A stretch of DNA of 33,880 nt from a virus: positions 1 to 33,880 of IMG/VR virus record IMGVR_UViG_3300048804_000058; one strand, 5' to 3'. Below the pieces are notes generated by a model, which saw only the letters and a program-made list of their open reading frames with translations, was not told the DNA's origin and did no database searches. Positions 2,507 through 28,230 of the stretch are shown here, piece after piece. A program made the position numbers and the translations under genes. Numbering within the stretch: the first letter of the stretch is position 1; each line of letters begins with the position of its first letter.

Positions 2507-4625
2507 CTAAAAATACCTCCATACCAATATAATCAGGTGATGACATAGTAGGTGTAACAGTACCACCAGCGGGAAGAAATACTACTCTCCACGTTCCTGT
2601 TAATGCACCATAAGAAATTAAATCCACAGTGAAATAGCTTGTTGAAGCAGCACTGAAATCTATTTGATCTGGAATAACCACTTTTCCACTATTATTTATA
2701 ATTATAACAACCCCATAAGCCACAGTAAGATTATGTGTAACTGTCAAAATTCCTGCGACTAAATCGGCATTGATAAAAGTAGTGTTATAGAATATACCTG
2801 CACCCACACCAAGATTTCCAGCAGCATCTGTAGTAATATACCTTACACCAGTACCAGAAAGTCCTGTCAATTTTAAATTAATAAATTGTGGTGATCCTGA
2901 TACACTAATATTCTGAGCTGCATCCAATGTTGAAGAAGAATAAGACAAGCTTGTTCCGATTGATACTATCCCCAACACACCTGCTGCGGCTTTTATAATA
3001 CCAGAAAGAGAACCAACTGTTAGACCGGCAAAGGTTGGACTATGTGTAGTTTCCAAAGAAAGATTTGCCCTAAGAGAGGTTGCACCAGTATAAGCAAGAC
3101 TTGCTAAATTTTTTGATCCGTCTGTGACAACTGCATTGGAAATAGTAAGTCCAGTAAGAAGAAGCCCCACATGGGTAACAGTTGACCCAGTAGTTAATCC
3201 TGATATATCAGCTTGAGCCAATGATAAACTTGATTTGAATGTGGCATAAGTAACACTTGCTAAATTCTTTGAAGCATCAGTAACTACAGGAAGAGAAGCA
3301 GTTAACCCTGATAGATTCAGCCCTGCAATAGAAAGTGAAAGTGTGACTGGAAAATCTGCATTTACCAATGCTCTGAAGGATGGCGCAGAAACCGCACCCG
3401 TTGTAGGTCCGGCAAATATTCTATTTGCTGTTTGGTTATCCAATCCAAGTGCTTGAGTAGATAATGACAAAAGGTTATTCTCTGCATCATTTGATAAAGT
3501 GATTGCGGGGTGCTTCAAAGAAACAGCACTTGAAATATCAGTATCAGTGTTTGTTCCTGAAACAAGATTTCTATTGGCATCACTCATTACTACTTTTGAG
3601 GTTGATAGACCTGAAAATGTGCCTGATGCTGAAATTGTTATACTGCTAAAAGAAGGGGAATCGCCTGATTGATATCGTGTATTGATAGCATTTTCTAATT
3701 CATCTATTTTACCTGCTGTCAACACTAATGCAAAATAATCACCGGCAATCCATGACTTGGCAATAGTTCCTTCTTGTGCTCGAACAATATTGAACGTATC
3801 GTCAGTATTCAATGTTGCGGTAACAATTTCTCTATTGATATCAGACAATGGAGTTGATGATGCTTGGCCCCACAAGACACACCTAAACGATCCCGTTGCG
3901 GGGAAAAGTGAACCCTTCCCCGATGCTACTGTTAATTCTAAATCACCAGAACCGATCCCGCTCACAGCAAGTGTGGTTGAAGCATAATTTTTATTTTTCA
4001 AAAAGGATGAAACACCACCACCCGATGCAGATTTATAAGCCGATGCCATGTTCCACCAACTGATACTGGAACTAGTCCAGTCTGCACTATCGGCCCCAGC
4101 AACAGCAAGAATTCGATCTTGTGTCGCCAAGTATGTCCAGCCACTATTGGTAGTTTCAGTTTGTTTGGTATAATCTTCATCGGCGGTAATTGAAGTATTT
4201 GATTTGTCAACAATCGCGCAGAAAATAAGTTCATTGGCTTCTGCTGCGGTGATACTTACAGTTGCACTTGTTCCAACACCGTTATTGATATTGAATGTGT
4301 CAAAATCACCAACACCAGAATATTCGTGAACGGCTATAGTTATATAATCTGCACTATTTGGTGTGACTGTGATCGTGAAAGCACCAGAAGCCGTGGTCAC
4401 ATCACAATCAAATAGATGTGCATAATTCGCCCCACCTGAAGACCGCTCGTTGTAAGTGTTGGGAGGGCTTTGATTGTCTGTTATGATAATAGTTTTGGAA
4501 TACCAAAAACTCACAGCAACAATCAATTTGTGGCCGACAATAGGGGTAACATCCAAGGTTATATCAAGAGAAGCACCGCTATCTGGATTACCAAGTATTT
4601 TTGACTGAACAAGTGAGATAGACAT
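2499..4625 (-). CDS. Large tail-fibre protein with repeats
   Basis: 708 aa. Residues 1 to about 200 look like a beta-sandwich module (HKLIVAVSFWYS, FTITVTPNSADYITIAVHEYSG). A phage-fibre module follows around 225-300, with the phrasing NREIVTATLNTDDTFNIVRAQEG and a GDYFALVLTAGK ending. The rest holds diverged repeats of GLT/SKNLAS/YATF type (STSKVVMSDANRNL, PVVTDASKNLASV, AVVTDGSKNLASL). The last ~110 residues are duplicated in the partial gene at 1-572. Probably a receptor-binding or connecting fibre. An AAAAATC...GATTTTT hairpin lies just upstream. Confidence 0.85.
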   Translation of the reverse strand: MSISLVQSKILGNPDSGASLDITLDVTPIVGHKLIVAVSFWYSKTIIITDNQSPPNTYNERSSGGANYAHLFDCDVTTASGAFTITVTPNSADYITIAVHEYSGVGDFDTFNINNGVGTSATVSITAAEANELIFCAIVDKSNTSITADEDYTKQTETTNSGWTYLATQDRILAVAGADSADWTSSSISWWNMASAYKSASGGGVSSFLKNKNYASTTLAVSGIGSGDLELTVASGKGSLFPATGSFRCVLWGQASSTPLSDINREIVTATLNTDDTFNIVRAQEGTIAKSWIAGDYFALVLTAGKIDELENAINTRYQSGDSPSFSSITISASGTFSGLSTSKVVMSDANRNLVSGTNTDTDISSAVSLKHPAITLSNDAENNLLSLSTQALGLDNQTANRIFAGPTTGAVSAPSFRALVNADFPVTLSLSIAGLNLSGLTASLPVVTDASKNLASVTYATFKSSLSLAQADISGLTTGSTVTHVGLLLTGLTISNAVVTDGSKNLASLAYTGATSLRANLSLETTHSPTFAGLTVGSLSGIIKAAAGVLGIVSIGTSLSYSSSTLDAAQNISVSGSPQFINLKLTGLSGTGVRYITTDAAGNLGVGAGIFYNTTFINADLVAGILTVTHNLTVAYGVVIIINNSGKVVIPDQIDFSAASTSYFTVDLISYGALTGTWRVVFLPAGGTVTPTMSSPDYIGMEVFLDG

Positions 4626-10079: not shown

Positions 10080-10673
10080 ATGTTAATTAATGTTTTAGTA
10101 TTAATATCAACTGTATTTGGATTCATGTCACTATACTATGGATTTAGAAACTGGGTCTTAATCAAAAGCAATAAATTATGGAATGCATCATGGGCTGCTT
10201 TTATTTCAACTGCCACTCTCATAGGTATTAGAAGGCTTTATTCGTTTCAATACGAACATGAACATATGTTAATTGAATATCTTTTGGTATTAGCAATATC
10301 CATTGGAGCATTCACATTTGCTTTAACAAAAAATAAATTCTTTGAAAAATATCTACGAGATATTAGAGAAGAAAAGGCAGATAAAAATTTCAGAAGAAAA
10401 GAAGAACTCATAAAAACAAAAGAAGAAGGCCGAGAAGAAGCAAATATAGAAAGAGAAAAAGGAAGAGAAACAGAAATACAAGCGCAAGAAAAAGATAGAG
10501 AAGATAAAAAAGAAAGAATTACAATGAGAAGAAGTAAGAGAGAACAAGAAAGCACAGATAGAGGAATAGCGAGAGAAGAAGAAAGCATTACAAGAGAAAA
10601 AGAAAGAATGCAAGAAAGAGAAGAAAGATTGACAGAAAGAAAAAGAAACATAAAAGATAAAAACGATCTATGA
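10080..10673 (+). CDS. Membrane protein with long charged single helix
   Basis: 197 aa. The start at 10080 is preceded by AGAGGTG, 8 nt upstream; a longer open frame from 9969 overlaps the previous gene and lacks such a site. Three hydrophobic segments (about residues 2-18, 36-51, 62-80) are followed by ~110 residues made almost only of Glu, Lys and Arg, e.g. REKGRETEIQAQEKDRED. This ER/K pattern is typical of a rigid single alpha-helix. It could act as a membrane-anchored spacer or scaffold; no family recognised. The stop overlaps the next start (ATGA). Confidence 0.7.
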   Translation: MLINVLVLISTVFGFMSLYYGFRNWVLIKSNKLWNASWAAFISTATLIGIRRLYSFQYEHEHMLIEYLLVLAISIGAFTFALTKNKFFEKYLRDIREEKADKNFRRKEELIKTKEEGREEANIEREKGRETEIQAQEKDREDKKERITMRRSKREQESTDRGIAREEESITREKERMQEREERLTERKRNIKDKNDL

Positions 10674-10906
10674 GACTAAAAAAATATTTATCAGAACAAG
10701 ACGGTGTATCTTCGAACCCCAGCAATCAAACATCTGGTGGCTTTGCGAATTATGGTATGGGGGCAGTTGCATATAAGCCAAAGGATCAAATCGACAGAAA
10801 GAAAAAGAAGAAAAAGAAAGAACCGAAAGAAGTTAAAAAGCCATTAACATTTCGACCAATAGCAGATACATCAGGAGAAACAACTGATAGCATGAGGCAA
10901 TACTAA
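10670..10906 (+). CDS. Tagged small basic protein (MRLKKYLSEQ)
   Basis: 78 aa. It begins MRLKKYLSEQD, the first of five consecutive plus-strand genes with the tag MRLxxY[LIM]xE. L-S-E fits the T4 prohead protease cleavage pattern, and the tag resembles the T4 internal-protein targeting peptide (MKTYQEFIAE). Behind it are a Gly/Asn/Ser stretch and a poly-Lys run (RKKKKKKKEPKEVKK), as expected for a DNA-binding or internal head protein. Start coupled to the upstream stop by ATGA, with no separate ribosome binding site. Confidence 0.75.
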   Translation: MRLKKYLSEQDGVSSNPSNQTSGGFANYGMGAVAYKPKDQIDRKKKKKKKEPKEVKKPLTFRPIADTSGETTDSMRQY

Positions 10907-11433
10907 TGAGGCTTGAAAAATACATGCAAGAGCAAATGGCGGGTGGTGGTGGAATGACTTCTGGTGGAATAGCTGGAGGAGCAAAAGGTGGAGAAATTGG
11001 AAGTGGTGCCACAACAACAAGCAAGATAGCCAAATTTTATCCTTACTACATTTATAATAAGAAGAAGAAGAAAAAAAAATTATTGAGTAGGAGAAAGGAA
11101 GAAATGACCATGACCAAGGAAGAGAAACTACTTTGGGAGCAGGGGCATCAAGTTGCTAAAACCATTCTTACACAAATTCATTCTTTAGATAAGTGGGCAT
11201 TGGGAGCATGGGGAGCACAAGATTTTGTATCAACAAACAATCCATCAAGTCTTCAGTTTAGAGTGAATGGAGCAAAATTCAAAGGAAAGGTTGTTATTCA
11301 TCTAAACGGAAAGGATTTATATGATATAGATTTTGGTGTGGGAAAAGATTTAAAATGGGTTTCAAAACACAAAGAACATGATATCTATGCTGAAGATTTA
11401 GTCAAAATACTTGATGACTATATTGAGAAATAA
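10906..11433 (+). CDS. Tagged protein: Gly-rich linker, poly-Lys, conserved phage domain
   Basis: 175 aa beginning MRLEKYMQEQ (tag; M-Q-E at the cleavage position). Residues 13-40 are Gly-rich, residues 52-58 are seven Lys, and from about residue 68 (MTKEEKLLWEQGHQVAKTIL ... WALGAWGAQDF ... LQFRVNGAKFKGKVVIHLNGKDLYDI) there is a compact domain that I recognise as a common stand-alone phage protein of unknown function. A tag and linker therefore seem to have been fused to it. An internal start at 11104 or 11110 (ATGACCATGACC after AGAAAGGAAG) could also make the domain alone. The stop TAA shares its A with the next ATG region. Confidence 0.75.
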   Translation: MRLEKYMQEQMAGGGGMTSGGIAGGAKGGEIGSGATTTSKIAKFYPYYIYNKKKKKKKLLSRRKEEMTMTKEEKLLWEQGHQVAKTILTQIHSLDKWALGAWGAQDFVSTNNPSSLQFRVNGAKFKGKVVIHLNGKDLYDIDFGVGKDLKWVSKHKEHDIYAEDLVKILDDYIEK

Positions 11434-12813
11434 ATGAGACTTAAATATTATATAACCGAAGCAGATGAAAAAATTAAAGTCGTAATTCTCACAACAAAGA
11501 ATGATGAAAAAAAAGAAGATTCTGGTGGGGATAAACTCTTTGACACATCAAAGAAAATCAAAGAGTATTGTGAAAAGAAAAAAATAAGTCATTATGTATT
11601 ATACGCCGAGAATGCATTCATCAATCGAAATAAAGATGATATGACCGTCCATAATTCCGATGACAAACAAGGATTTAAAATACACAAAAACAATACAGCA
11701 GTTGTTGTTCGAGGAACTTTTGATACACTATCAACTGGCCTTGACCTTCTTTCCAGAATGGAAAATGCTGGTATATTCTGTGTAAATGGAAGAGAAGCAA
11801 TAGAAATATGCTCCGATAAATATCGAACAATTCTCGCCATGGAAGACAATGAGATAAAATGCCCCAAGACAGCAACGGTAGTGAATAAAGATGGGCTTGG
11901 GGGCGCATTTAAACGAATTGGTGGAAAATTCCCATGTATCTTAAAAACCATAACAGGATCAAAGGGTATTGGAGTGTTTTTTGCGGATTCGTGGATTGGC
12001 ATGAATTCTACTCTTCAGGCAATGTGGAAAGTAGATGAAGAAGTACAGATATTGATGCAGGAATACATTGAAGCAGATTTTGATATGAGAATCCATGTTC
12101 TGGGTGGTGAAGTCATAGGAGCAATGAAAAGATTCAAAATAAAAAATGATTTCAGATCAAATTATTCTCTTGGTGGCAAAATTGAAGAGATGAAAGTAAA
12201 TGACAAATTGAGAGAATTTGCTATCAATGCAGCGAAGGCAATAGGGGGAATATGGGTCGGTGTAGATGTAATGGATGCAGGAAAAGAGGATTATCGCGTT
12301 ATCGAAGTCAACTCTTCACCAGGGACAGAAGGAATAGAAAAAGCCACCCATAAAAATATAGTTGGAACAGTAGTAAAGTTCATAACCGATAAGAACAATT
12401 GGGCTGATATAAAAAAGACAGAATGTGGTTTCGTTGAAAAAATAAAAATAGAAAAAACAGATAAAGAATTTGATGCCAAAATGGATACGGGCAATAGTTC
12501 TTACTCTGTCATTCATGCCAACAAATGGAAAATAAATGGCGATAATATAAGATGGGAAATGTATGGAAAGAAATATACCGATGAATTAGACTCCATGAAA
12601 GAAGTAGAAGCAGGAGCGACAGAACATAAGAGAGAAGAAAGACCCGTCATAAAGTTGAATGTAATTTTCAACGGGGAAACATACAAAAACGTTAGATTCT
12701 GTCTATCAGATCGAGAAGATTTTTCAACTCCTGTATTGATGAATCGCCAATTTATTAGACGGGCTGGATTAATAGTCAACCCATCATTGAAATATGCTCT
12801 ATCGGAAAAATAA
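11434..12813 (+). CDS. Tagged RimK-like ATP-grasp ligase fused to RimB-like protease domain
   Basis: 459 aa. Tag MRLKYYITEA (I-T-E). Residues ~15-320 form a RimK-type ATP-grasp glutamate ligase: CPKTATVV, the ATP-binding lysine in FPCILKTITGSKGIGV, the LMQEYIEAD strand, DMRIHVLGGEVIGAMKR, and the metal-binding end VIEVNSSPG. RimK adds glutamates to the C-terminus of ribosomal protein S6. Residues ~335-459 match the retropepsin-like RimB / RimK-associated zinc-protease family, with AKMDTG at 349-353 and LSDRED plus VLMNRQF near the end. A ligase and its partner hydrolase in one chain, with a head-targeting tag, suggest an injected ribosome-modifying enzyme; that target is inferred. Confidence 0.85.
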   Translation: MRLKYYITEADEKIKVVILTTKNDEKKEDSGGDKLFDTSKKIKEYCEKKKISHYVLYAENAFINRNKDDMTVHNSDDKQGFKIHKNNTAVVVRGTFDTLSTGLDLLSRMENAGIFCVNGREAIEICSDKYRTILAMEDNEIKCPKTATVVNKDGLGGAFKRIGGKFPCILKTITGSKGIGVFFADSWIGMNSTLQAMWKVDEEVQILMQEYIEADFDMRIHVLGGEVIGAMKRFKIKNDFRSNYSLGGKIEEMKVNDKLREFAINAAKAIGGIWVGVDVMDAGKEDYRVIEVNSSPGTEGIEKATHKNIVGTVVKFITDKNNWADIKKTECGFVEKIKIEKTDKEFDAKMDTGNSSYSVIHANKWKINGDNIRWEMYGKKYTDELDSMKEVEAGATEHKREERPVIKLNVIFNGETYKNVRFCLSDREDFSTPVLMNRQFIRRAGLIVNPSLKYALSEK

Positions 12814-13118
12814 TGAGACTACAAGAATATCTTACAGAAAAAGAAGAAAGGAAAGTTGTTGTTTATAACATAAAGAATGTAGATCAGCTTCACCAAAGAA
12901 TGAAAGAAATGAGCGTGGGAAATGAGTATGCATGGATTGCCCACACAGTCTTTGGTATGACAACTCTGACCGCATATAAACGCCCAAGTCTTATACCATA
13001 TATTGCGATAGGCGATTCTCCCATAGCATTCAAAGGATTTTATCAGAATGGAGAGTTCAAGGATTTTCCTACTGCTCAAAAAATCAAATACCAGAATAGT
13101 AATATGGGATCAGAATGA
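12813..13118 (+). CDS. Tagged hypothetical protein (MRLQEYLTEK)
   Basis: 101 aa. Tag MRLQEYLTEK (L-T-E). The remainder is an alpha/beta domain (KVVVYNIKNVDQLHQRMKEM, YAWIAHTVFGMTTL, PYIAIGDSPIAFKGFY) with no family I recognise. Start coupled to the upstream stop (TAATGAG) and overlapping the Nudix start by 4 nt. Probably co-packaged with the other tagged proteins if the tag works as proposed. Confidence 0.7.
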   Translation: MRLQEYLTEKEERKVVVYNIKNVDQLHQRMKEMSVGNEYAWIAHTVFGMTTLTAYKRPSLIPYIAIGDSPIAFKGFYQNGEFKDFPTAQKIKYQNSNMGSE

Positions 13119-13570
13119 GACTCAATAAATATATAACAGAAGAAAAAAAACTCAGTGTAGGTCTTATTCTTACAGATGGAGAAGTATTTCTCGCCGTTAG
13201 ACCTACAAATGGATTTCTCTATGATATGCCAAAAGGAATGGGCAATCCAGGAGAAAACCCTGTTGAAACTATTGTAAGGGAGTTCAAAGAAGAAACAAAC
13301 ATTGACATATCGAGATATAAATCACAACTAACCCCAATGGGAAAACATTATTATACAAACTATAAAGACGTTGACGTTTTTGTCCTGAAACTTGAAAATC
13401 TTCCTTCAATATCTTCAATGAAATGCACTTCAATGTTTCATATAAGACCCGATGAACTCGCGCCAGAAGTTGATCAATTCCATTATATCAATTGGAACAA
13501 TTTGAAAATGTTCAATTCTGGTATGAAAAACATTCTGGAAAAAGTAAGAGAAAAAATAAAAAACCCATAA
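13115..13570 (+). CDS. Tagged Nudix hydrolase
   Basis: 151 aa. Tag MRLNKYITEE (I-T-E). The Nudix box runs from G41 to I63 and fits G-x5-E-x7-REUxEExGU, with N replacing the last G (REFKEETNI), so the metal-binding glutamates are present. Nudix enzymes hydrolyse nucleoside diphosphates linked to another group, such as NAD, ADP-ribose or RNA caps; the substrate cannot be read from sequence. Last gene of the plus operon, ending at a hairpin shared with the convergent minus operon. T4 also encodes a Nudix enzyme, but tagging one for the head would be unusual. Confidence 0.85.
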   Translation: MRLNKYITEEKKLSVGLILTDGEVFLAVRPTNGFLYDMPKGMGNPGENPVETIVREFKEETNIDISRYKSQLTPMGKHYYTNYKDVDVFVLKLENLPSISSMKCTSMFHIRPDELAPEVDQFHYINWNNLKMFNSGMKNILEKVREKIKNP

Positions 13571-15034: not shown

Positions 15035-15706
15035 TTAATGCTGAACAAAAAGAACATCAGACCTTGTTTGGCAAGCGGTGCATGTTTCCCCACAAACCAC
15101 CTTATTTCCTGGTTTGCATGGACAAACAAAGGCACCTGTTTCTCCTGCACGAATGTTTATTTCTTGTTCTGGGCCAAAGTTAACTTTACCACCAACAAAA
15201 GAACTTACGACATTGAAATTAGGAAGAGATTTAATCTTTCCAAAATCCCATATATGTTCTGTTTTAGTATATGTATAGAATCTTACATCAGGTCTTTCTT
15301 TTGCAATTTCAAACCACATATCAAGATATGCTTGAGAGAACATATCACCTGATTCATGAATTCTGACAATATCTCCTGATTCTAACTTCGATAATATTTG
15401 TTTTTTCAAAAGTTCGGGGGCTTCTTTAGCAAGTCTAAAATTTCGGCCTCGTGCTGCCCTGACAGCAGGATATTGTCTTTCTGCTTTTCTAGCATAGCAG
15501 AATTTAGCACATTGGGAAGAATTTGGGCAACTCTGTATAGCGGGAAGATTGAATATTTTTATCTTCTTGGATAATTTCAAATTTCCTTTAGACATAAAAA
15601 CCCAAAGGTCTTCAAGAGGAATTTGTTCTACAGGAACATTTTTATACTTCACTGCCATTTCTTTTTCTCTTTTGTCCACTTCTACCAAAAAATTTTCATA
15701 TCGCAT
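15035..15706 (-). CDS. GP88-like protein with head-tag-like N-terminus
   Basis: 223 aa. It starts MRYENFLVEVDK; NFL-V-E matches the L-x-E cleavage pattern and resembles the tags of the plus operon. The body (SKGNLKLSKKIKIFNLPA, SCPNSSQCAKFCYARKAE, VRAARGRNF) matches the phage GP88 family, named after a mycobacteriophage gene product. The Cys clusters C-x5-C-x3-CYA and a later CPCKPG...C...CTAC suggest bound metal or an Fe-S cluster. A TATAAATA late box lies 28 nt upstream. Biochemical function of the family is not known to me. Confidence 0.75.
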   Translation of the reverse strand: MRYENFLVEVDKREKEMAVKYKNVPVEQIPLEDLWVFMSKGNLKLSKKIKIFNLPAIQSCPNSSQCAKFCYARKAERQYPAVRAARGRNFRLAKEAPELLKKQILSKLESGDIVRIHESGDMFSQAYLDMWFEIAKERPDVRFYTYTKTEHIWDFGKIKSLPNFNVVSSFVGGKVNFGPEQEINIRAGETGAFVCPCKPGNKVVCGETCTACQTRSDVLFVQH

Positions 15707-21866: not shown

Positions 21867-21941
21867 TGGAGCCACCGAAGAGATTCGAACTCTCATGAAT
21901 TGGGTACGGACCAATCATTCTTCCTGTTGAATTACAGTGGC
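21867..21941 (-). tRNA. tRNA-Thr(CGT), C33
   Basis: Acceptor GCCACTG/CGGTGGC, discriminator T, CCA encoded. Stem ATTGG/CCAAT, loop TCCGTAC: anticodon CGT with C33. Its first 27 nt are also the end of the GGQ protein gene. Confidence 0.8.
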
Positions 21942-22295
21942 GTGTGTCCATTTTCCTTCTTGTTTTGTTTCTACTTTTATATATTTATCGTTTACCCATT
22001 TTTCAACTTCTGCAAGTAATTCTTTTTCTGTTTTATGAGTTGATAAATATTTTGATGCTTCCAATTTCAGCCACTTTTTGAATTTATCGGTATCAACCAA
22101 TCGTCTGAATGCATTCTTTCTATTTTGAAGTTGACTTCTCTCTTCTCTGCTTTCTCCTATTGCACCAGATTTTTCGTGAATTATTCTTACTCCACTTTCC
22201 ACCTTATTCTGGTTCTGCCCACCTTTGCCACCAGATCGAAAAGTTTGAATTTCAAAATCTTTTTTGGTTACAGAGAATAACAATTCTTTTTTCAT
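21915..22295 (-). CDS. GGQ-domain release-factor-like protein
   Basis: 126 aa from MKKELLFSVTKKDFEIQ; a longer open frame runs back through tRNA-Leu(CAA) and is rejected. Residues 19-40 (FRSGGKGGQNQNKVESGVRI) carry the GGQ peptidyl-tRNA hydrolysis motif (25-27) with the flanks of the RF-1 domain family, and GESREERSQLQNRKNAFRRL follows as in class I release factors. No codon-recognition domain is present, so it resembles ArfB-type rescue factors or RF-H-like proteins. The last residues and TGA lie in tRNA-Thr(CGT). The start follows the CCA of tRNA-Leu with no clear ribosome binding site. Confidence 0.85.
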   Translation of the reverse strand: MKKELLFSVTKKDFEIQTFRSGGKGGQNQNKVESGVRIIHEKSGAIGESREERSQLQNRKNAFRRLVDTDKFKKWLKLEASKYLSTHKTEKELLAEVEKWVNDKYIKVETKQEGKWTHATVIQQEE

Positions 22296-22303
22296 AATAT
22301 TTT

Positions 22304-22381
22304 TGGTGCGCCTGGGGGGATTCGAACCCCCAAAATCACGGGTTTGAGCCGTGCACCTATACCTGATTCGATCACAGGCGC
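22304..22381 (-). tRNA. tRNA with Leu(CAA) anticodon, short variable arm
   Basis: Acceptor GCGCCTG/CAGGCGC, discriminator A, CCA encoded. Stem CACGG/CCGTG, loop CTCAAAC, anticodon CAA. Variable region is only ATTTT, whereas bacterial leucine tRNAs have a long arm; the D stem is also short. Amino-acid identity is therefore uncertain. Confidence 0.8.
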
Positions 22382-22384
22382 ATA

Positions 22385-22585
22385 TTACCAACTATTCAAT
22401 TCAATTTCTGTGCGGTTGTTACATTTCGGGCATACGAAATTTACCTTAACCTCACCATGATTACCACATCTATCACAATCCTGGCTCATTCCTTGCCAGT
22501 GAAGATCATTCTTTTTTACTGCAACATTCTTGTTACAGTGCCCACAAAAAAATAAAAGATGTTTTAGTATACCTACATATCTCAT
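22385..22585 (-). CDS. Zinc-ribbon protein
   Basis: 66 aa from MRYVGILKHLLFF; AAGGAAAATGTT follows the CCA of tRNA-Leu(TAA) and sets the start. Three C-x2-C knuckles (CGHC, CDRC, CPKC) plus one further region could hold two zinc ions. Small multi-knuckle proteins of this kind are common in T4-like phages. Function unknown. Confidence 0.7.
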   Translation of the reverse strand: MRYVGILKHLLFFCGHCNKNVAVKKNDLHWQGMSQDCDRCGNHGEVKVNFVCPKCNNRTEIELNSW

Positions 22586-23125: not shown

Positions 23126-23183
23126 TTTCAGTCTTTATTATATCAAAAATCTGAAGACATGTCAAGAAAAATCTTTCATAATA
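23126..23183 (-). repeat. 58-bp promoter repeat, copy 1
   Basis: 56 of 58 bases match the copy at 28057-28114, including both promoter boxes, spacer ends and upstream A/T tract. Confidence 0.9.
23137..23165 (-). promoter_or_regulatory. Consensus sigma70 promoter (copy 1 of a duplicated promoter)
   Basis: Perfect TTGACA (23160-23165), 17-bp spacer, TATAAT (23137-23142). The surrounding 58 bp (23126-23183) recur with two mismatches at 28057-28114. An A/T-rich stretch before -35 may act as an UP element. Reads towards the phosphatase and on into the tRNA block. Confidence 0.9.
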
Positions 23184-25859: not shown

Positions 25860-25933
25860 TGGTAGCCCCAGTCGGATTTGAACCGGCGTTTCAAGATTGA
25901 AGGTCTTGCTACCTACCATTAGTAGATGGGGCC
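25860..25933 (-). tRNA. tRNA-Glu(TTC), C33
   Basis: Acceptor GGCCCCA/TGGGGCT, discriminator A, CCA encoded. Stem CAAGA/TCTTG, loop CCTTCAA, anticodon TTC with C33. Confidence 0.85.
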
Positions 25934-27101: not shown

Positions 27102-27176
27102 TGGAGCCGATGGAGGGAATCGAACCCCCAACTTACTGCTTACAAGACAGTTGTTCTTCCGTTGAACTACATCGGC
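27102..27176 (-). tRNA. tRNA-Thr(TGT)
   Basis: Acceptor GCCGATG/CATCGGC, discriminator T, CCA encoded. Stem ACTGT/GCAGT, loop CTTGTAA, anticodon TGT. Confidence 0.9.
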
Positions 27177-27220
27177 AAAAACATCAAGCGTTTAGAATCC
27201 ATCCTATCCATGCTTATTAA

Positions 27221-27240
27221 GGGGATTTCACGTTGTTCTA
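27221..27240 (-). repeat. 20-nt repeat in ncRNA region, copy 1
   Basis: The plus strand reads ggggatttcacgttgttcta; it recurs with one insertion and one change at 27522-27542. On the transcribed strand each copy lies downstream of a T arm. Confidence 0.7.
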
Positions 27241-27384
27241 TTAGTAAGTGGCCACTTACCAACATCTATCCCAAATTTTCACATACGGGAATCGAACCCG
27301 TATTCCGCTTGTCTACTCTTAAATTTTTCGGGTATCCTGTTTGGTGGCAAATGCCTCCAACAGAATTGCTCCATATTTGTGTCT

Positions 27385-27455
27385 CTAAATTTGCTCGAAT
27401 CGAACGAGCATCACGGGTTGCAATGCCCGTATGTTACCGCTACACCACAATTTAG
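27385..27455 (-). ncRNA. tRNA-like unit inside the ncRNA region
   Basis: Acceptor CTAAATT/AATTTAG, T arm GCTCG-TTCGATT-CGAGC, D-arm-like GTGTAGCGGTAACATAC, and an ACGGG/CCCGT stem with an 8-nt loop CATTGCAA (TGC or GCA could be exposed). No CCA follows. Shape is tRNA-like, but an 8-nt loop and missing CCA argue against a normal tRNA. Confidence 0.5.
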
Positions 27456-27521
27456 ATTTTAGCATGCATTCACAAATATGTCTAACAGTCTCCGAAGAGA
27501 CACCCAAATTCGTACCTACTC

Positions 27522-27542
27522 GGGGATTTCACTCTTGTTCTA
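27522..27542 (-). repeat. 21-nt repeat in ncRNA region, copy 2
   Basis: The plus strand reads ggggatttcactcttgttcta, near-identical to 27221-27240, again downstream of a T arm on the minus strand. Confidence 0.7.
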
Positions 27543-27550
27543 CATTTAGA

Positions 27551-27621
27551 ACCATCGGGGAGATTTGAACTCCCGACCTGTTCAATTACTTGAACCCTCT
27601 ACCAAACTGAGTTACATTGAT
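27551..27621 (-). ncRNA. Second tRNA-like unit inside the ncRNA region
   Basis: Acceptor ATCAATG/CGATGGT (one A-A mismatch), D arm ACTC-AGTTTGGTA-GAGG, T arm GGGAG-TTCAAAT-CTCCC. The anticodon arm GTTCA-AGTAAT-TGAAC has a 6-nt loop. No CCA. Probably not a working tRNA. Confidence 0.5.
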
Positions 27622-27968
27622 TCTATTTGTATCTATCCTTTTCGGTTTATCATAATGGTCTGGGAGGAAGGGATTATCTCTCACCCTTTTTGCTCTAATC
27701 GGCCTCTCACATTAATTTATCCATGGTTATTAATGCTACCCACCTACCCCCCACAATTTTATTTTTAGGGATGGAATTTAATTGCTCCAATTGTGTCACG
27801 CCATCTATTCCGAGCGACAACCCTTAAAATTCCCGATAATGGGCAGACCACACAGGGACGGAATCAAACCACAAAGGATGTCCATTACCGATATATCGTT
27901 ATAAATTCGCTGACGCGGGATTTAGGGTATCTTGGAAACACCGCGTCCTTTGTCCTGATCGCATTGCG

Positions 27969-27991
27969 AAAAAACCCCATGCTCGGTTTTT
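27969..27991 (-). terminator. AAAAACC...GGTTTTTT hairpin near the ncRNA 5-prime end
   Basis: On the minus strand AAAAACC, an 8-nt loop, GGTTTTTT, about 70 nt after the promoter start. Could be an attenuator, or one helix of the ncRNA fold. Reads as terminator-like on both strands. Confidence 0.4.
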
Positions 27992-28056
27992 ATAATTTCC
28001 GCTTTCTATCAGTAATTCCAAGATTAATATTCAGTTGTCAAAGATCAATTACTCAT

Positions 28057-28114
28057 TTTCAGTCTTTATTATATCAAAAAACTGAAGCCATGTCAAGAAA
28101 AATCTTTCATAATA
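28057..28114 (-). repeat. 58-bp promoter repeat, copy 2
   Basis: Matches 23126-23183 at 56 of 58 positions. Confidence 0.9.
28068..28096 (-). promoter_or_regulatory. Consensus sigma70 promoter heading ncRNA/tRNA block
   Basis: Perfect TTGACA (28091-28096), 17-bp spacer, TATAAT (28068-28073). It follows the terminator at 28195-28230 and reads into the structured ncRNA and the tRNAs. Confidence 0.9.
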
Positions 28115-28194
28115 AAATCAATAACTTACCTTCTTATTACTGCTTTCCCTTACCCATGGTACTCAAATAAAGACAATTTTAAACTTGTGAAACA

Positions 28195-28230
28195 AAAAAC
28201 CCCACTTTGATTTCTCCAAGAGGGGTTTTT
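28195..28230. terminator. Bidirectional terminator after second virion operon
   Basis: AAAAACCCC ... GGGGTTTTT, a 9-bp stem with T run on either strand, 26 nt after the stop of 28257-28487. Separates that operon from the ncRNA promoter. Confidence 0.85.

Follow-up and report, generated by a model that had tools for sequence, protein, structure and literature searches.

A conserved four-way-junction RNA with an exchangeable third arm in the leader of a phage tRNA operon

Results

A long gene-free leader heads the tRNA operon

The window analysed here is the whole 33,880-base IMG/VR virus record IMGVR_UViG_3300048804_000058. Its DNA polymerase belongs to the T4-like group and its minus strand carries more than 30 tRNA genes, with the feature under study on the same strand, ahead of the tRNAs (Table 1). 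A preliminary description had proposed that positions 27177-28061 encode one large RNA with tRNA-like parts, structured along its whole length of about 880 nt and possibly akin to the giant phage RNAs GOLLD and ROOL. We confirmed that the region is free of genes, the minus-strand open reading frames inside it being all of 40 aa or less, and that a strong promoter stands at its head (28096-28068, 12/12 match to the sigma-70 type with an extended -10 box). A 155,948-base contig turned out to be the same virus (1 mismatch in 12,019 bases) and had no comparative value.

Table 1. Elements of the leader and its flanks in the window, listed in the direction of the minus strand.
Element	Position	Strand	Evidence
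Terminator-like hairpin of the upstream gene (AAAAACCCC...GGGGTTTTTT), splits transcription units	28194..28230	-	sequence; same layout in L004
Promoter TTGACA-17-TATAAT, extended -10	28068..28096	-	12/12 match; homologous promoter in L004, 15203-15265
rRNA-type boxA TGATCTTTGACAACTGAATA, 20 nt past the -10 box	28028..28047	-	exact 20-mer in GTDB genomes
Unit 1, with TLS1 and the first bipartite motif	27513..27845	-	local alignment to unit 2
TLS1, tRNA-like cloverleaf, no CCA, anticodon loop of 4 or 6 nt	27550..27621	-	RF00005, 31.5 bits
Bipartite motif, copy 1 (AGAACAAGAGTGAAATCCCC)	27522..27541	-	
Core, perfect four-way junction RNA	27326..27511	-	MFE z -5.15; same fold in L004; double-sided changes
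Core helix P1, UUUGGGU/ACCCGAA	27508-27502/27333-27327	-	
Core helix P2, hairpin	27501-27488	-	
Core helix P3, UGUU/AGCA	27487-27484/27371-27368	-	
Inner helix of P3, beyond the conserved AGACA/UGR internal loop	27480-27471/27382-27373	-	
TLS2, tRNA-like cloverleaf on P3, no CCA, anticodon loop of 8 or 6 nt	27384..27455	-	RF00005, 38.2 bits; ARAGORN tRNA-???
Core helix P4, eight pairs, bulged A, two G-C pairs	27367-27358, 3' strand to 27334	-	
Lone T-arm hairpin ATACGGG-TTCGATT-CCCGTAT	27283..27303	-	sequence; fold
Bipartite motif, copy 2 (AGAACAACGTGAAATCCCC)	27221..27239	-	
First bona fide tRNA past the leader, tRNA-Thr(UGU), CCA encoded	27102..27176	-	RNase P would cut at its 5' end and free the leader

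The promoter has a close counterpart in the window, a stretch of 44 nt recurring with 95% identity at another promoter, 23169-23126. The boxA 20-mer occurs at 61 exact places in GTDB genomes, compared with about 0.5 expected from our own base-count estimate over 257 billion bases, and at least 9 of the 61 matches lie in rRNA operons, 70-200 nt before the 16S gene or in the 16S-23S spacer. As in the boxA leaders of rRNA operons, a boxA-type sequence follows closely on a strong promoter that serves a long operon of stable RNAs, whereas here the operon driven is one of phage tRNAs, no boxB or boxC was identified, and the element is absent from the related phage L004 and from behind the sister promoter at 23165. 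In gamma-proteobacteria, by comparison, the published boxA consensus reads GYTCTTTAANA (PMC5725501). The motif suggests that the leader could recruit host rRNA antitermination factors. Among the other matches, many copies of the 20-mer were present in one Kiritimatiellaeota MAG (L176, L178, L181, L184 and others), and it was also found in near-identical contexts of unrelated Firmicutes and others (L175, L179, L182 and others), a pattern suggestive of a mobile element that they share.

Other observations were made along the window. Inside the tRNA array, an RF-1-domain gene (peptide release factor type; phrog_3122, E 4e-32) lies at 21915-22391 (-) and overlaps a tRNA-Leu, and a tRNA missed by ARAGORN was detected by Rfam at 25863-25933 (-), with 53.3 bits and a CCA following it. 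At 10670-13570 (+) and 15035-15706 (-), five consecutive genes have the common N-termini MRLKKYLSE, MRLEKYMQE, MRLKYYITE, MRLQEYLTE and MRLNKYITE, with a looser form, MRYENFLVE, at 15706. This common start resembles the sequence that targets T4 internal proteins to the capsid, so the proteins that bear it, an ATP-grasp-like and a Nudix-like one among them, may be packaged and injected.

The leader holds a compact four-way-junction core

The fold of the leader was then evaluated against shuffled sequences. The extensive structure attributed earlier to the whole ~880 nt was not borne out, since its MFE z-score is only -0.77 and 5 of 20 shuffles folded equally well. Folding excess was confined in sliding windows to about 27524-27269 (~190-250 nt), and the 5' half of the leader, covered in windows of 150 nt, exhibited none. 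This stretch includes the core, in which four helices meet with zero unpaired bases between them; with its tRNA-like cap the core has a z-score of -5.15, and none of 200 shuffles was as stable. A second promoter candidate inside the core (27484-27456, 10/12) was set aside because its -35 box belongs to the conserved AGACA loop and the P3 insert holds its -10 box.

The useful relative was L004 (IMGVR_UViG_3300032053_000177), with a DNA polymerase that shares 64% identity with that of the window. The gene order is the same in both: polymerase, a small gene (50% identical), the terminator-like hairpin, the homologous promoter, a leader, of about 140 nt in L004, and then, in L004, a tRNA-Asp. The L004 core (15286-15407) adopts as its own MFE fold the same perfect four-way junction, with a z-score of -1.76 when taken alone, only slightly better than chance. 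With TLS2 set aside, the sequence similarity between the two cores reached a z-score of 5.9 (0/500 shuffles), the exact loop sequences CUGUUAGACA and AGCAAUU are common to both, and the AGACA/UGR internal loop of P3 is kept. In a MAFFT alignment of these two sequences, with the P3 tips replaced by N, 98.4% of the cells were paired and six pairs showed double-sided changes, compared with 36-61% paired and 0-1 double-sided changes when the partners were slid along the same alignment. This level of covariation was reached by 8 of 500 letter shuffles, the test being weak because it involves only two sequences; a structure-fitted alignment gave seven double-sided pairs and an alifold z-score of -13.8, which is inflated by the fitting. 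The preliminary description had held that a lack of covariance support in homologues would speak against its RNA: the core escapes this objection, and nothing supports the remainder of the 880 nt.

Arm P3 of L004 ends in a plain hairpin while that of the window bears the TLS2 cloverleaf, whose acceptor-like helix is reached from P3 through an asymmetric loop; the junction is therefore conserved and the P3 cap exchangeable, and this exchangeable cap is the most distinctive feature of the core. Because the L004 leader, behind its homologous promoter, consists of the core alone, the conserved object measures about 100-190 nt, and the label 'giant' is unsupported. The leader holds a compact, conserved four-way-junction RNA and most probably not one giant RNA of known class.

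tRNA-like units and repeats in the rest of the leader

Several smaller elements that had been read from the letters were recovered. The two tRNA-like units without CCA, TLS1 and TLS2, both score above the Rfam tRNA cut-off (RF00005, 29 bits), with model matches at 27621-27550 for TLS1 and 27454-27385 for TLS2, and the isolated T arm corresponds to the hairpin at 27303-27283. CCA is encoded by the operon's bona fide tRNAs and by all the tRNAs (16/16 and 23/23) of two related phages; TLS1 and TLS2 have neither the encoded CCA nor the 7-nt anticodon loop of a bona fide tRNA. TLS2, as judged from these traits, would be unable to work as a normal tRNA. The repeated motif proved real in a bipartite form, AGAACAA-(1-2 nt)-GTGAAATCCCC, with one copy at 27541-27522 and the other at 27239-27221. 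Of 1000 shuffles, 138 matched the 11-mer repeat by itself and 7 held a bipartite motif like the one observed.

Local alignment of unit 1 with unit 2 gave a z-score of ~5 (0/500 shuffles), with TGGAGCAATT and GTGAAATCCCC in common and a similar order of motifs. The junction fold is absent from unit 1, which probably arose as a tandem duplicate of the core unit (unit 2) and then decayed. On the 3' side of the core lie the lone T arm, a palindrome and copy 2 of the motif. Palindromic loops were considered as dimerisation signals and rejected, six-base palindromes being too common to count. Altogether, a structured noncoding RNA with tRNA-like parts at the head of the tRNA operon is supported; the four-way junction, the boxA, the likeness of the two tandem units and the structured RNAs in other inter-tRNA spacers are additions to what had been described.

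Searches find the core in two phages

We searched for homologues with covariance models, as the preliminary description had advised, and its proposed kinship with GOLLD or ROOL found no match in the region at E values up to 10. The GOLLD model (RF02032) also had no match in six related phage records, and the search of these six records with the ROOL model (RF03087), run without a positive control, was empty. Other Rfam families at lenient thresholds gave nothing convincing except tRNA, and a nucleotide search of 50,697 phage records returned tRNA-like and chance bits only. In IMG/VR, pattern scans with the core motifs, the GTGAAATCCCC motif and the tRNA-bearing core gave real matches only in this phage and L004, the rest being coding sequence or chance. 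The promoter pattern led to one further related phage fragment (L241), which is without a tRNA array, and the gene upstream of the leader, used as bait, returned the same two phages. The core was absent from G003, G008 and G009, which are DNA polymerase relatives with tRNA arrays, and a covariance model built on the core matched only the window phage and L004 among the related records.

Other structured units between phage tRNAs

Gene-free inter-tRNA spacers of the window that fold as closed units were observed on the minus strand at 25777-25668 (z -2.65) and 26801-26715 (z -2.39), and the spacer 27101-26968 (-) forms another (z -1.78) that contains a T arm and is not called as a tRNA. The tRNA array of G008 (L144) exhibits structured gene-free units at 195-317, 478-587, 664-733 and 3997-4124, with z-scores of -2.6 to -4.4; the one at 478-587 resembles a tRNA, has a T arm and lacks CCA, and a four-way junction occupies 3997-4124, with a hairpin immediately next to its P1. 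The spacer units of both phages are leads only, because they were picked after looking and their conservation is not shown. In G003, a CCA-ending unit (L142 4709-4818) carries a Tyr-like anticodon arm (CUGUAAA) before a D-arm-like stretch, so that its arms seem rearranged. In G007, a tRNA with anticodon CUA (L147 2230-2305, minus strand; tRNA-Pyl according to ARAGORN) is a possible amber suppressor.

Discussion

The core appears to be a new RNA, and RNAs of its kind in phage tRNA operons have lacked an explanation since T4. The T4 RNAs RNAC and RNAD (NC_000866, 70908-71171), also called species 1 and 2, lie in the T4 tRNA cluster and were identified as late RNAs by Northern blot, with function unknown (PMC9697503, PMC3014915); rnaD of a T4-like phage showed a convergent mutation in a recent study (PMC12685909). 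Like the core, they are structured non-tRNA units inside the tRNA operon of a T4-like phage, and RNAC, which carries a T arm and lacks CCA, folds with a z-score of -4.7, comparable to that of the window core. However, RNAC and RNAD close the T4 cluster on its 3' side whereas the core heads its operon on the 5' side, and they have no four-way junction bearing a complete cloverleaf on one arm. No sequence homology was detected between them and the window, only T-arm and short chance matches. By analogy of setting and build, RNAC, together with RNAD, appears to be the closest analogue of the core.

The bacterial Y RNA YrlA resembles the core in that a CCA-less tRNA-like module is attached to a structured RNA. 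The YrlA model (RF02553) had no covariance match in the window, and no Ro60/TROVE gene was present in the searched genome parts of the window phage and L004 (G001, G002). A TROVE (Ro60-type) protein gene was observed in the related phage G003, at 141309-142103 (-), with an E value of 8e-16.

Our preferred reading, to which we give a probability of roughly 0.55, is that the leader contains a discrete structured RNA that is freed by tRNA processing, like RNAC and RNAD of T4. Given the promoter, the boxA, the junction with its double-sided changes, the cloverleaf grafted on P3 and the place before the tRNAs, we infer how it might be made and kept. The leader would be transcribed together with the tRNAs of the operon, the boxA loading host Nus factors on the polymerase so that it can traverse the whole long operon. 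Release of the leader RNA would fall to RNase P and further enzymes of tRNA processing, the closed P1 and the compact fold would keep it stable, and the freed core may then act as a discrete structured RNA, comparable to those derived from the T4 tRNA cluster; perhaps it also helps RNA polymerase through the long operon. The CCA-less cloverleaf might serve as a handle for processing or stability, or as a mimic of the tRNA elbow, rather than as a decoder, and the remaining leader would be a decayed second copy of the unit with tRNA debris. In favour of this reading, a homologous promoter and a tRNA flank the core in each of the two phages; against it stand the occurrence of the core in these two phages only and the missing boxA of L004.

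The junction could instead be a cis-acting antitermination leader that, like HK022 put or Tn916 canT RNA, would modify RNA polymerase while emerging from it and so let it read through the long operon, the tRNA-like parts being incidental. RNA-only antitermination is known from put, EAR and canT (PMC11658703, PMC9378689), the core of L004 begins shortly past the operon promoter, and the window leader has a boxA as well. In the window, however, the core lies ~550 nt past the promoter, it is missing at the other strong promoters of the operon, and strong terminators were not seen inside the operon; we regard this explanation as unlikely.

Neutral decay of tRNA genes, with the junction a coincidence or a recent leftover, would agree with the scores of TLS1 and TLS2, which are below those of most operon tRNAs, with a T arm that is a fragment, and with a leader of which most is not in common with L004. 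It is difficult to reconcile with a core kept across polymerases that are 64% identical, with its exact loops and double-sided changes, and with the precise placement of TLS2 on the P3 arm, and we consider it improbable. A single ornate RNA of ~880 nt, a divergent GOLLD or ROOL or a similar new class and possibly a multimeric cage, is very unlikely: its size, its tRNA-island setting beside phage tRNAs and its embedded tRNA-like parts fit the description of these RNAs, which measure 600-800 nt and, in the case of GOLLD, may include tRNAs within the linker (PMC12286853), but the covariance models found nothing, folding excess is lacking in the whole and in the 5' half, and L004 keeps the much shorter core alone.

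Beyond the discrete RNA that we favour at this locus, we put forward tentatively, and with somewhat less than even confidence, that the core represents a new class of phage RNA, a junction whose third arm can be exchanged between a hairpin and a CCA-less tRNA mimic, and that it is one of several structured units between the tRNAs of T4-like phages. The observations suggest that structured RNAs in phage tRNA islands have been overlooked, as gene finders skip them or call them 'tRNA-???'. The defined conserved fold with its tRNA mimic follows a promoter and, in one of the two phages, an rRNA-type boxA as well, and it offers a concrete target for expression, probing and deletion. If the proposal is true, phage tRNA islands would also be islands of unexplained structured RNAs, of which RNAC and RNAD of T4 were the first seen.
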